DNA of 64,000 nucleotides from an uncultured Bacteroidota bacterium (GTDB lineage: Bacteria; Bacteroidota; Bacteroidia; Bacteroidales; P3). Positions 46,363-49,504 of the stretch are shown here, piece by piece. The DNA lies in the NCBI GenBank assembly GCA_902790215.1, contig CADAQX010000022.1:1-64000 (forward strand), written 5' to 3'. The notes under the pieces were generated by a model. It saw nothing but the letters and a program-made list of their open reading frames with translations, ran no database searches and was not told the DNA's origin. Every line of letters starts with the position of its first letter. Position 1 is the stretch's first letter. The position numbers and the translations under genes are program-made.

Positions 46363-46416
46363 TTTTTTTCACACCTGTCAGATTTCACCCCTTGAGGGGG
46401 TAATGTATGGATAGGT

Positions 46417-48909
46417 ATGAACGTTTTCGATAAGCCGAACGCAGACAAGCTTGCTTGTATGCTGAGGCGAGAAAACGTCTATTGCGAAGAAATGAACGAC
46501 CACGACACATTCAACCGCCTGTTTCGCACCTATGGTGCCATCGTCTGGAGCATGTGCAAGAGCTCATCGCACGGCGACTACGAGCGATGCCGTGACCTGT
46601 TTCAGGACGTGTCGGTACGCCTGTGGCTGCACATCGGCGACTTGCGGCAGGATGCCATGCCCCACGAAGAAAAGGCATGGGTTGAGTGGCAGACACGCCA
46701 TGTGTTGAGCCACAGCCGCAAACCCCGTGACATGGAGCACAACTTGCCTGAGCTTCCCGACGACGACACTGCCGCCGAGGCCGAACGGCGCACTCTTGTC
46801 GCCGACCTGATGGCACAGCTGCAGGACGAAGACAGGCAGTTGATGCAGATGCGTCTTGAAGGCTACTCCGCCGACGAGATAGCCCAGGCCACCGGGCTGA
46901 AACGCGATGCAGTGTATCAACGCATACACCGCATCGTGGCACGGATGCGCAAGATGCTCATTGTTCTGTTGTTCATACTGGCGGCCTCAGCCATTGCCGT
47001 GGCCGTGGTGCCACAGTGGCGAAAGGCTGTGTTCCACCGCAGCACTCCTCCGTCAAGACCCACCCCGGCTGGCACATCAGACCACCACCAAACCCCTACC
47101 GACAGTGTCGCCACACCGGCAATCGTGGTCAACTGGGACTATCACGGCAACGAGCCCTGGTACACCCACACAAGCAAAGGGGGCTCAGGCATGGCCTTCA
47201 ACCACCTCAACAGCACCATCACCTACTACCGTACCCTCAATGGTCGCACCGTGACGGCGGTGATGCATGTCGACCCAGCCATCCTATTTCACGATACCTT
47301 AACATCTGACAGTATGAATACCACAATGAAACAGGCTGCCCTTGCAGCAGCATTAGTGGCACTGGCCACCGCCACAAAAGCCCAAGTGGCACACGATTTC
47401 CAGACCGTTACCCCACAGGGCGACACCCTCTTCTGCACCATCACCGACTCTGCACAACGCCACATCAGCGTGCGTGGCGACGAATCGGTATGGAATGCAC
47501 AGTACATCCATTACAGCGACACGCTGGTCATCCCCGCCACTGTGGAGCACGACGGCACCGCCTACACCGTCACAGCATTGGCCGACAGCGCATTCTACAG
47601 CCACGCCGAGGTGAAAAGCGTCAGCATTCCTGCTACGGTAACATCAATCGGACGGTTAGCCCTCGCCTCCACCTCCATCTACGACCTAAACGTGCATGAC
47701 AACGTGGAGACTATCGAGCCAAATGCATTCCGGTTAATCAAAAATGTAGAATACCACGGCAATGCCTCCGGCAGCCCGTGGGGTGCGCTGACCGTGAACG
47801 CCTATGTGGAAGACAGCCTTTATTACACCGACAGCACTCGCACGCGCCTCACCGCTTGCCATCCGCAGCTGGCTCAAGCCATTGTGCCCCCATCAGTGCG
47901 AACCATCGGACGACTTGCCTTTGCCGGCTCCAATACACTCACTGCCATAACCCTTCCCGAAGGCCTCGACACCATAGGCAATTACGCCTTTCAGAGTTGC
48001 AGCCAACTGGGCTCTGTGTCCATTCCTTCTACTGTCCGGGTAATAGGCAACTACGCATTCTACAACGCCTTTAGGCATGACGGCAGTGCTACAGCAACCA
48101 TCGCAGACGCCGACAACGTCAGCCCGGACTCCATGTGCAGTATTGGCAAAGGCGCCTTCGCCTACAGCCATATAGGAGCCGTCAACCTCGGCAACCGTAT
48201 CTCATCAATCGGTAGCGATGCCTTCTCCACCTGCGACCATCTCGACTCGGTCATCGTGCCCAACAGCTGCACCTACCTTGCCGAGCGCGTCTTTTGCTAC
48301 AACTACAACGGCAGCCTGAAGAAAGTCCACCTGCCCGAAGGCCTCGACACCATCCGTGCCGAACTTCTCCACGGCTGTCCCGGACTGAAAGAAGTGAACA
48401 TACCCTCCTCTGTGGTCTATATCGACAGCATGGCTTTCCTCGAATGCAGCAAGCTCACCGAACTCACCCTGCCTACAGGACTCACCTACATCGGACAGTA
48501 CGCCTTTGGGGAATGCTCTCGCGTCCGAAAAATACACAGCCTCGCCGCCACGCCGCCACAGGCCTTCTCCGGCACTTTCTATGGGATGAATCCTGCACTC
48601 CAGCTTGTCGTCCCGTGTCACAGTGGTGAAGCCTACAACGCCGACCCCTACTGGAGCTATTTCAACAACATCGAAGAGGACTGCACCGGCGCTCCAACAG
48701 CCGAAGCCCCACAAGTGGCAATCCGCACAATTGAAGGAGGCATCACCGTCGAGGGCTGTGCCGGCGACCGCATCCGTATCTTCGACACCGGCGGAAGGCT
48801 CATAGCCGAAACCAACTGCCAAGGTACCTGCACCCTCCGCCTGCCCGCCGCAGGCATCTACATGGTGCAGATAGCCGACCGCCCGGCCCGGAAAGTCGTC
48901 GTACAATAG
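46417..48909 (+). CDS. ECF-type sigma factor fused to BspA-type LRR protein
   Basis: One uninterrupted frame of 830 codons holds what are normally separate genes. Residues 26-180 look like an ECF sigma factor: a region 2 block (DLFQDVSVRLWLHI) and a region 4 helix-turn-helix (YSADEIAQATGLKRDAVYQR). A membrane helix follows at 180-198, then an uncharacterised stretch to about 299. At Met300/Met304 (DNA 47314/47326) a typical signal peptide begins (304-323, ending KAQ). After it come BspA-like leucine-rich repeats (AFxxCxxLxxVxIPxxVxxIG type, e.g. 400-700) and a T9SS type A sorting domain at the end. Either the two parts are fused or the second is also started internally. The N-terminal start could also be Met26 (46492). 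Confidence 0.75.
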   Translation: MNVFDKPNADKLACMLRRENVYCEEMNDHDTFNRLFRTYGAIVWSMCKSSSHGDYERCRDLFQDVSVRLWLHIGDLRQDAMPHEEKAWVEWQTRHVLSHSRKPRDMEHNLPELPDDDTAAEAERRTLVADLMAQLQDEDRQLMQMRLEGYSADEIAQATGLKRDAVYQRIHRIVARMRKMLIVLLFILAASAIAVAVVPQWRKAVFHRSTPPSRPTPAGTSDHHQTPTDSVATPAIVVNWDYHGNEPWYTHTSKGGSGMAFNHLNSTITYYRTLNGRTVTAVMHVDPAILFHDTLTSDSMNTTMKQAALAAALVALATATKAQVAHDFQTVTPQGDTLFCTITDSAQRHISVRGDESVWNAQYIHYSDTLVIPATVEHDGTAYTVTALADSAFYSHAEVKSVSIPATVTSIGRLALASTSIYDLNVHDNVETIEPNAFRLIKNVEYHGNASGSPWGALTVNAYVEDSLYYTDSTRTRLTACHPQLAQAIVPPSVRTIGRLAFAGSNTLTAITLPEGLDTIGNYAFQSCSQLGSVSIPSTVRVIGNYAFYNAFRHDGSATATIADADNVSPDSMCSIGKGAFAYSHIGAVNLGNRISSIGSDAFSTCDHLDSVIVPNSCTYLAERVFCYNYNGSLKKVHLPEGLDTIRAELLHGCPGLKEVNIPSSVVYIDSMAFLECSKLTELTLPTGLTYIGQYAFGECSRVRKIHSLAATPPQAFSGTFYGMNPALQLVVPCHSGEAYNADPYWSYFNNIEEDCTGAPTAEAPQVAIRTIEGGITVEGCAGDRIRIFDTGGRLIAETNCQGTCTLRLPAAGIYMVQIADRPARKVVVQ

Positions 48910-48983: not shown

Positions 48984-49015
48984 TTTGTCCATACGAAAAA
49001 AAGTTAGTATCTTTG
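48984..49015 (+). promoter_or_regulatory. Promoter of the toxin-antitoxin pair
   Basis: TTTG (48984-48987), 20 bases, TATCTTTG (49008-49015): one of the best Bacteroidota promoter matches in the window. It ends 23 bases before the antitoxin ATG at 49039. No further promoter is visible before fba. Confidence 0.8.
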
Positions 49016-49038
49016 CAAATTCAAAATATTGGCAAATC

Positions 49039-49221
49039 ATGGACAATAACGACACTACACCTACAGCATCCGAAACCGCCGTTCTATATGGCCAAGCCAA
49101 CACACCCGGGCACATTCATCAGCAGGAAATCCCCGCCAACTGCATGACTGTGGATGAGTATTTTGATGAATTAATTGAACTACTCCGTCAAGACTATGCG
49201 AGAATACAGGGTCATCATTAA
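49039..49221 (+). CDS. Putative antitoxin of RelE/ParE-type pair
   Basis: This 60-residue protein (start ATG 49039, MDNNDTTPTAS) has a polar N-terminus and a C-terminal helix VDEYFDELIELLRQDYARI of the kind that wraps the toxin in type II pairs. It shares 26 bases with the toxin gene, a usual arrangement for translational coupling with the antitoxin first. No DNA-binding domain is evident in this short chain, so it may neutralise the toxin without strong autoregulation. The longer frame from 48985 starts before the promoter and is discarded. Confidence 0.7.
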   Translation: MDNNDTTPTASETAVLYGQANTPGHIHQQEIPANCMTVDEYFDELIELLRQDYARIQGHH

Positions 49222-49504
49222 CCGTGCAGCGCGCGTGGATTTTCTTGAAATCAGAACGTTCCTATGGGGTGTTCTGTCCTTTCAGAGTGCAGAAAAGTAC
49301 GCCAACGCCATGCGAGCAGAAATAAAAAGCATTAGCATCTTCGCTGACTGTTTTCAACGCAGCACTTCCAAGCAAATACTCTCCATTCACCCACAAGCCC
49401 GCAGGATGGTTTCGCACAACAAACGCTGGGTTTATATTTTCCACATCGAAGGCGACTTTGCCATTGTTGACCGAATCCTTTCAGCAAAGAATATCAAACA
49501 ATAA
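49196..49504 (+). CDS. RelE/ParE-family toxin
   Basis: The 102-residue protein (ATG 49196, MREYRVIINRAA) fits the RelE/ParE fold: N-terminal strand, helices with DFLEIRTFLWG and SAEKYANAMRAEI, a CFQRSTSKQI segment and closing strands RMVSHNKRWVYIFHIEGDF. RelE members cut mRNA on the ribosome and ParE members attack gyrase; the sequence does not settle which. It lies 22 bases before fba with no visible promoter between them. Confidence 0.82.
   Translation: MREYRVIINRAARVDFLEIRTFLWGVLSFQSAEKYANAMRAEIKSISIFADCFQRSTSKQILSIHPQARRMVSHNKRWVYIFHIEGDFAIVDRILSAKNIKQ

Follow-up and report, generated by a model that had tools for sequence, protein, structure and literature searches.

A candidate nested dual-product gene in uncultured Bacteroidales joins a putative membrane-tethered ECF sigma factor to a BspA-type leucine-rich repeat protein with its own start codon and signal peptide

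A single uninterrupted reading frame from an uncultured member of the Bacteroidales carries an ECF sigma factor domain, a transmembrane (TM) helix, a linker, an internal start codon with a putative signal peptide (SP), BspA-type leucine-rich repeats (LRRs) and, at its C-terminal end, a domain akin to T9SS type A sorting domains (Table 1). With moderate confidence, we read it from sequence comparisons as a nested dual-product gene that would encode an autoregulated membrane-tethered sigma factor with a T9SS-type LRR cargo and, in addition, a free secreted copy of this cargo. This likely reading draws on comparative evidence from MAGs of one genus. The original prediction, made on the window (the whole stretch of 64,000 nucleotides that was analysed), had placed a sigma factor, a TM helix, a second SP, LRRs and a T9SS-type domain in one 830-codon frame, and this was confirmed, with the T9SS-type domain scoring below its curated cut-off. 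It had also posed an internal start and a single coupled polypeptide as an either/or; these two are not mutually exclusive, and the data presented here favour both products. The promoter-like element and the two-gene, operon and SP-less relatives described below were not part of that prediction.

Architecture of the open frame

The proximal part of the protein has the composition of an ECF sigma factor: of the sigma-70 regions only 2 and 4 are present, and the TIGR02937 score stands against a cut-off of 42.9 bits. Among the Pfam matches, region 4 lies above its cut-off and region 2, taken alone, below. In the AlphaFold model, a helix spanning residues 163-196 is continuous with sigma region 4, its pLDDT of about 71 dropping to 42, and strands with low pLDDT are placed at residues 236-284 of the linker, for which a Pfam search (residues 199-298, E 0.5) gave no match. 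The model of the whole protein has a mean pLDDT of 75, with the linker and signal-peptide regions at low confidence, and Foldseek matched it to BspA-type LRR structures (4fs7) and to ECF sigma factors. Profile and structure both identify the repeats as BspA-type.

The C-terminal domain reaches 17.1 bits against TIGR04183, under the curated cut-off of 23, and is related to the T9SS type A sorting domains by its fold and homology. The host genome encodes SprA (2368.7 bits) and GldM (252.8 bits) in profile searches that gave no match in 14 control genomes, and it contains 88 sorting-domain matches above cut-off. The N-terminal Sec signal of a T9SS type A cargo would be present only in an internally started product, where its hydropathy is like that of most stand-alone orthologues.

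Two codons may serve as the start of the full-length protein. The first, at 46417, lies 9 nt 3' of a promoter-like element, and the second, M26, is where the aligned orthologues of the same fused type (class C: sigma-TM-linker-internal SP-LRR) begin; MFE values around them are -6.2 and -2.4 kcal/mol, respectively. The 75 nt (25 codons; 46417-46491) between the element and M26 are found in the window's genome and in the relative G110, and are absent from the other aligned class C sequences.

Table 1. Features of the sigma-LRR locus, in window coordinates.
Feature	Position	Strand	Basis or remark
Promoter-like element TGTCAGATTT-N14-GTAATGTA, candidate autoregulatory sigma promoter	46376..46407	+	single exact match in the window's genome
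Whole open frame, 830 codons plus stop	46417..48909	+	translation, no internal stop; 46492 (M26) is a possible alternative start
ECF sigma domain, residues 31-181	46507..46959	+	TIGR02937 58.9 bits; PF08281; model matches ECF sigma factors
Transmembrane helix, residues 181-199	46957..47013	+	hydropathy; same place in relatives
Linker, residues 200-299, predicted periplasmic	47014..47313	+	conserved in class C
Initiation context of internal start: A-13 (47301), A-12 (47302), A-3 (47311)	47301..47311	+	A at all three in 15/15 sequences
Internal start codon and putative signal peptide, residues 300-322, cleavage expected before Q323	47314..47382	+	alignment, mRNA openness, hydropathy, initiation context
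BspA-type leucine-rich repeat region, residues ~330-755	47404..48681	+	PF13306 187 bits; AF2 pLDDT mostly >85; Foldseek 4fs7
C-terminal domain related to T9SS type A sorting domains, residues 767-830	48715..48906	+	fold and homology
Sigma-LRR junction peptide TVTAVMHVDPAILFHDTLTSDSMNTTMK			would mark full-length fusion
Expected mature N-terminus of LRR product after SP cleavage QVAHDFQTVTPQGDTLFCTITDSAQR			begins QVAHDF

Conservation of the open junction

In our sample of 120 genomes of the genus (Bacteroidales MAGs), the sigma part was present in 63 at E 1e-25 or better, and 16 fetched sequences span the sigma-LRR junction. Fifteen of these, from 14 genomes, are open across it; 12 run to the final stop, and three (G143 contig 128, G086, G068) reach the end of their contig. 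The lowest identity to the window among the junction-spanning homologues is about 47%. Twelve fused sequences are letter-for-letter identical to records of MAGs from several separate assembly projects. By their titles, four such MAGs came from goat, sheep or yak rumen or reticulum, and those with RUG names we take to be of rumen origin as well.

These data bear directly on the earlier suggestion that the frame is open because a stop codon was lost, either in the organism or in the assembly, in which case close relatives should carry a stop before 47314. When the homologous loci were compared, such a stop was missing from all but one of them. Beyond the odd architecture itself, we found nothing in favour of a lost stop or an assembly error, and the occurrence of the same frame in 14 genomes, with 12 sequences matched exactly in records from several projects, leaves this explanation a negligible probability; we consequently rejected it. 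As judged from these homologues, the architecture is real, conserved and unusual, and not an artefact.

The sole split among the 16 sequences is that of G110, which is about 90% identical to the window. It lacks 55 nt at the junction, and its sigma frame stops at a TGA that overlaps the ATG (ATGA) of an intact signal-peptide-LRR gene. Since G110 stands beside a fused relative in the LRR tree, its split form appears to be derived, via a 55-nt deletion. Within class C, the linker between W201 and M300 measures 92, 96, 98 or 100 codons, each of these lengths preserving the frame.

When the window is paired with its close relatives, both the distal linker and the signal peptide have a lower pN than pS; in comparison with G113, for instance, the values are 0.044 vs 0.226 in the distal linker and 0.037 vs 0.273 in the signal peptide (G068, with only two signal-peptide codons, is uninformative there). 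Other pairs point to weak constraint in the distal linker, with w at 0.53 (G074-G090), 0.86 (G090-G136) and 0.93 (G136-G098). Sliding pS revealed no clear dip of synonymous change at the junction.

The internal start codon

Several properties make ATG 47314 look like a real start. From codon -10 to codon +3, A/T makes up 64% of the third positions, against 25% just upstream and 55% just downstream, and this AT-rich DNA, previously taken for a former intergenic gap, is better read as a kept translation-initiation site. The MFE from -25 to +25 around the ATG is -2.7 kcal/mol. In the window, the median is -3.1 at the starts of 42 ORFs that were called mechanically and reach 150 aa or more (the sigma-LRR frame among them), and -10.8 at 372 internal in-frame ATGs (AUC 0.90), of which 1.9% are as open as 47314. 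The orthologous ATG ranks first for openness among the internal ATGs in 12 of the 13 ranked sequences, a ranking that omits G098 (ATG one codon earlier) and G068 (contig end), and in the window it is second of 18. Synonymous recoding favoured openness in 14 of 14 sequences, an effect that is uniform in direction and weak in the single sequences, with a value of 0.05 or less in two of them and of 0.23 in the window.

According to a study on Flavobacterium johnsoniae, A at -3, -12, -13 and -6 favours initiation (PMC6847099). The first three of these bases precede the internal ATG in every one of the 15 sequences, that of G098 being scored at its own ATG, but the sequences come from one genus of shared ancestry, in which the junction may have travelled by recombination as a single cassette, so that 15 of 15 does not stand for 15 independent cases. 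A-6 is absent, with G at this position in 14 of 15. The conserved start bears the initiation signature of the clade minus A-6. The combination of A-3, A-12 and A-13 is present at 1.1% of 178 other internal ATGs and at 0.5% of 10541 codon positions. The A at -13 falls on a wobble base and is provided by four different codons. At the corresponding junction of three SP-less forms, the mRNA is strongly structured.

In 9 of 14 sequences, the hydropathy of the SP core falls inside the range spanned by four stand-alone LRR genes or exceeds it, with a tolerance of 0.01; in the other five the core is less hydrophobic, and in G036 it is clearly weak. An internal start had originally been placed at 47314 or 47326. 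The former held up on its initiation context, its openness and the hydropathy of the peptide that follows, whereas the latter was discarded because the mRNA is not open there. A sigma-70-type promoter was also considered at the junction and one was found, but the region holds two such matches vs 1.3 expected; the scan covered sigma-70-type promoters, and those of Bacteroidetes lie outside it.

A free LRR part could also arise if the gene were translated as one chain, which signal peptidase would cut at the internal SP to leave the tethered sigma factor behind. The expected cleavage site, between A and Q, is indeed conserved in the alignment. With the linker in the periplasm after the first TM helix, however, the SP would have to insert the wrong way round against its N-terminal Lys/Arg, and such a polyprotein would leave the initiation signature unexplained; we regard it as very improbable.

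Other arrangements of the same modules

The 60 fetched loci include 51 proteins of 300-420 aa with sigma factor, TM helix and linker (class A). Of the 51, 49 have a C-terminal part that resembles the class C domain (E 0.01 or better), although several of these matches are weak; taken alone as candidate T9SS domains, the class A tails found RgpB at E 0.039, ranked below many unrelated matches. Class B consists of four proteins of 492 aa from one clade, with sigma factor, TM helix, one LRR block and the C-terminal domain, and none of the four has a signal peptide match.

In three further relatives (G012, G010, G134) the sigma factor is soluble, and its TGA overlaps the ATG of a separate TM protein whose linker is, by eye, of the same kind as that of the window. 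Where its end was fetched (G012, G134), this TM protein has LRRs and the C-terminal domain. By eye, the two-gene forms of G012 and G010 encode tethered LRRs without an SP. The frame of the G134 TM protein stays open across a similar linker and goes on to encode an internal Met, a signal peptide and LRRs, and its internal ATG, the most open of 12, is preceded by A at -12, -13 and -6 and by G at -3. Operon forms (L174, L176) contain, in a row, genes for a sigma factor, two TM proteins (the first of them small, the second recognised by eye) and an LRR protein with a signal peptide. Solo LRR genes with an N-terminal SP are likewise present in the genus; those found are a minimum, and there may be more.

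These forms allow two other accounts of the gene to be weighed. In the first, only the full-length tethered sigma-LRR protein would be made, and the internal Met-SP segment would be the relic of a gene fusion that now serves as a linker. Class B and the two-gene forms of G012 and G010 manage without an SP, and the weak SP core of G036 would also be in keeping with such a relic. Yet the Met and SP features have persisted through deep divergence, pN in the SP lying below pS, the initiation context and openness fall at exactly ATG 47314, and the matching junction of the SP-less forms is strongly structured; a single product is, in our estimation, unlikely. In the second account, the LRR protein would be made from the internal start and the sigma factor would act independently of it, the open frame amounting to incidental read-through in a coupled-operon-like arrangement. 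The G110 split with its ATGA overlap, the operon forms with sigma factor and SP-LRR protein as separate genes, and the solo LRR genes are all consistent with separate functions. This is hard to reconcile with 15 of 16 open junctions and linker-length changes that are without exception in frame, with G134, which keeps the frame despite its sigma factor being a separate gene, and with the existence of SP-less tethered LRR forms; we therefore judge it to be quite unlikely. The conservation of the frame, together with the two-gene and SP-less relatives, suggests that the full-length tethered protein matters as well as the free copy favoured by the dual-product reading. A counterpoint is provided by G110, which makes the halves as separate genes and in which the fusion is dispensable.

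In the sigma tree, class C requires six changes, at least four of them forced by strong branches, and in the LRR tree fused vs solo requires at least four, both trees carrying long-branch warnings. As far as these sequences tell, the sigma and LRR modules do not share one common history, and that of the fused state is not simple; sigma and linker-LRR modules have been swapped among class C orthologues.

Individual pairs and loci provide further observations. G136 and G098 have a common sigma domain (pN 0.019) and divergent linkers (0.53); G090 and G136 have similar linkers (0.117) and divergent sigma domains (0.44). In the clusters L069, L073 and L074, genes for a tethered sigma factor, an LRR protein and a fused protein are neighbours on one strand, with another tethered sigma factor in L073 and L074. 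In the window's own genome, the locus L241 (G000:C30) encodes a soluble sigma factor followed, by eye, by a small and then a second TM-like ORF. Among 295 genomes sampled across the Bacteroidales, a match at E 1e-12 was obtained in six, the window's own and five others; the frames of the five others, at 165-184 aa, are too short for the tethered form. The same search gave no match in three genomes of the sister genus.

A promoter-like element and its candidate regulon

The upstream regions of many genes among these relatives have the consensus TGT[CA]AGATTT-N14-GTA[AT]T[AG]TA in common; for some class A genes it is missing from the 110 nt upstream. A pattern with looser spacing, applied first to 12 chosen genomes, found 22 sites in nine genomes, 21 with equal spacing and one a base shorter, and the reversed control found no sites there. 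Genus-wide, we counted 95 exact sites in 50 of the 120 genomes, and the reversed pattern gave zero in every genome listed among these 120. The one exact site of the window's genome lies upstream of the sigma-LRR frame.

Of the 95 sites, 45 have a listed sigma hit on their own strand at a distance of -40 to 250 nt; conversely, an exact site accompanies 45 of the 98 listed sigma hits. Behind 47 of the remaining 50 sites, an ORF of 70 aa or more follows within 300 nt, and one of the three sites without such an ORF is at a contig end. Profiles identified seven of the 47 as soluble sigma factors and 17 as LRR proteins, and simple motifs marked 12 as CarboxypepD-like and eight by a lipobox, with three others. 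A Pfam check of three CarboxypepD-like ORFs placed two over the cut-off and one under it, and gave no match for three lipobox ORFs and one of the three others. That unrelated genes follow one spaced element argues for a promoter. An RNA leader was considered as well and is less probable, fitting less well with a fixed 14-nt spacing before unrelated genes. Autoregulation is common in ECF systems, and we thus infer that the sigma family probably reads the element of its own gene.

By eye, several elements form part of a hairpin loop, the hairpin being GC-rich and preceded by a TATTTTTGCA box, possibly a second promoter or an RNA leader. A variant of the element, TGTAAGATTT...GCGTATTATA, stands before soluble sigma paralogues, e.g. 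those of L299 and L333; promoter and sigma subfamilies, our comparisons suggest, co-vary.

A model for the locus and its relation to known systems

The sequences themselves show the frame with its conservation, the domains, the initiation signature, and the shared element together with the genes behind it. The scheme that we infer, as regards the making of both products, their topology, the recognition of the element by the sigma factor and its proteolytic release, runs as follows. Transcription would begin at the promoter-like element, probably read by the same sigma family. Translation from 46417 or 46492 would yield the full-length protein, with the ECF sigma domain in the cytoplasm, a TM helix right after sigma region 4 that would pin it to the inner membrane, and the linker, LRRs and T9SS-like sorting domain in the periplasm. 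If the SP inserted as a second TM helix in this protein, the LRRs would come to lie in the cytoplasm. Translation from ATG 47314 would provide the LRR-sorting-domain part with its own signal peptide, and thereby lead to its export and probably to T9SS-dependent surface display. Once the periplasmic part met its signal, proteolysis would free the sigma factor, which would then transcribe its own gene and, in relatives, also genes for secreted LRR proteins, lipoproteins and CarboxypepD-like proteins. More tentatively, and with the odds leaning against it, the protein might be a sensor of secretion status derived from its own cargo, in which the handling of the tethered copy by the secretion machinery or by a surface ligand would gate sigma release. 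Were this so, export of an adhesin would directly control transcription of the adhesin gene and its regulon, a scheme around which sigma and sensor modules would seem to have been reshuffled within the genus.

The closest counterpart is IutY of Pseudomonas putida (ECF243), a sigma factor fused via one TM helix to a periplasmic FecR-like anti-sigma domain and released by Prc and then RseP, that is, by periplasmic followed by intramembrane cleavage, as described in two reports (PMC8999054; PMC9249621); among sigma/membrane-regulator fusions, IutY is the one that the first of these calls experimentally characterised (PMC8999054). The window protein has, in its predicted topology, the same order of a cytoplasmic ECF sigma factor, one TM helix (the only one in the proximal part, as in relatives) and a periplasmic regulatory part in a single chain. 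It differs in that this periplasmic part consists of a linker, BspA-type LRRs and a T9SS-like domain, and in that its frame holds an internal start and a signal peptide. No FecR-like domain was matched in Pfam, either with the whole protein at E 0.1 or with residues 199-298 at E 0.5, and no recognised anti-sigma domain was among the Pfam matches and the best 25 of 31 NCBIfam matches. By analogy, a tethered sigma factor with IutY-type release logic would be the best fit for the window protein.

In Porphyromonas gingivalis, a surface signal has been proposed to reach the PorXY-SigP pathway by way of the sorting-domain protein PorA, so that there, too, a T9SS sorting-domain protein would be linked to an ECF sigma factor pathway; P. 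gingivalis uses separate proteins and a two-component system, whereas the window has sigma factor and sorting domain in one chain (PMC7712824). With BspA-type LRR surface proteins that carry a T9SS-type sorting domain, the window protein shares the LRR fold and the C-terminal domain, and it has stand-alone orthologues with an N-terminal SP; unlike in those, its LRRs are the distal part of a sigma-factor frame. Operons of an ECF sigma factor and a membrane anti-sigma factor resemble the two-gene and operon relatives in the genus, while the form in the window is fused.

The literature examined describes few sigma factors that carry a fused, membrane-anchored regulatory part. In the literature searched, there was no report of a sigma factor fused to LRRs or to a T9SS sorting domain, the 2021 ECF reclassification, which may describe such a group, lying outside this search; nor was there a membrane-tethered sigma factor that ends in an exported adhesin with a T9SS-like domain or that nests a free copy of its sensor. 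If the dual-product reading is true, protein secretion and transcription would be coupled in one gene, a regulon with a readable promoter would become available in bacteria known here only from MAGs, and the fused, split, two-gene and operon forms would offer a natural series for testing the evolution of such circuits.

Just downstream of the frame, two short overlapping ORFs at window positions 48985-49504 resemble, by eye only, a RelB/RelE-type pair.
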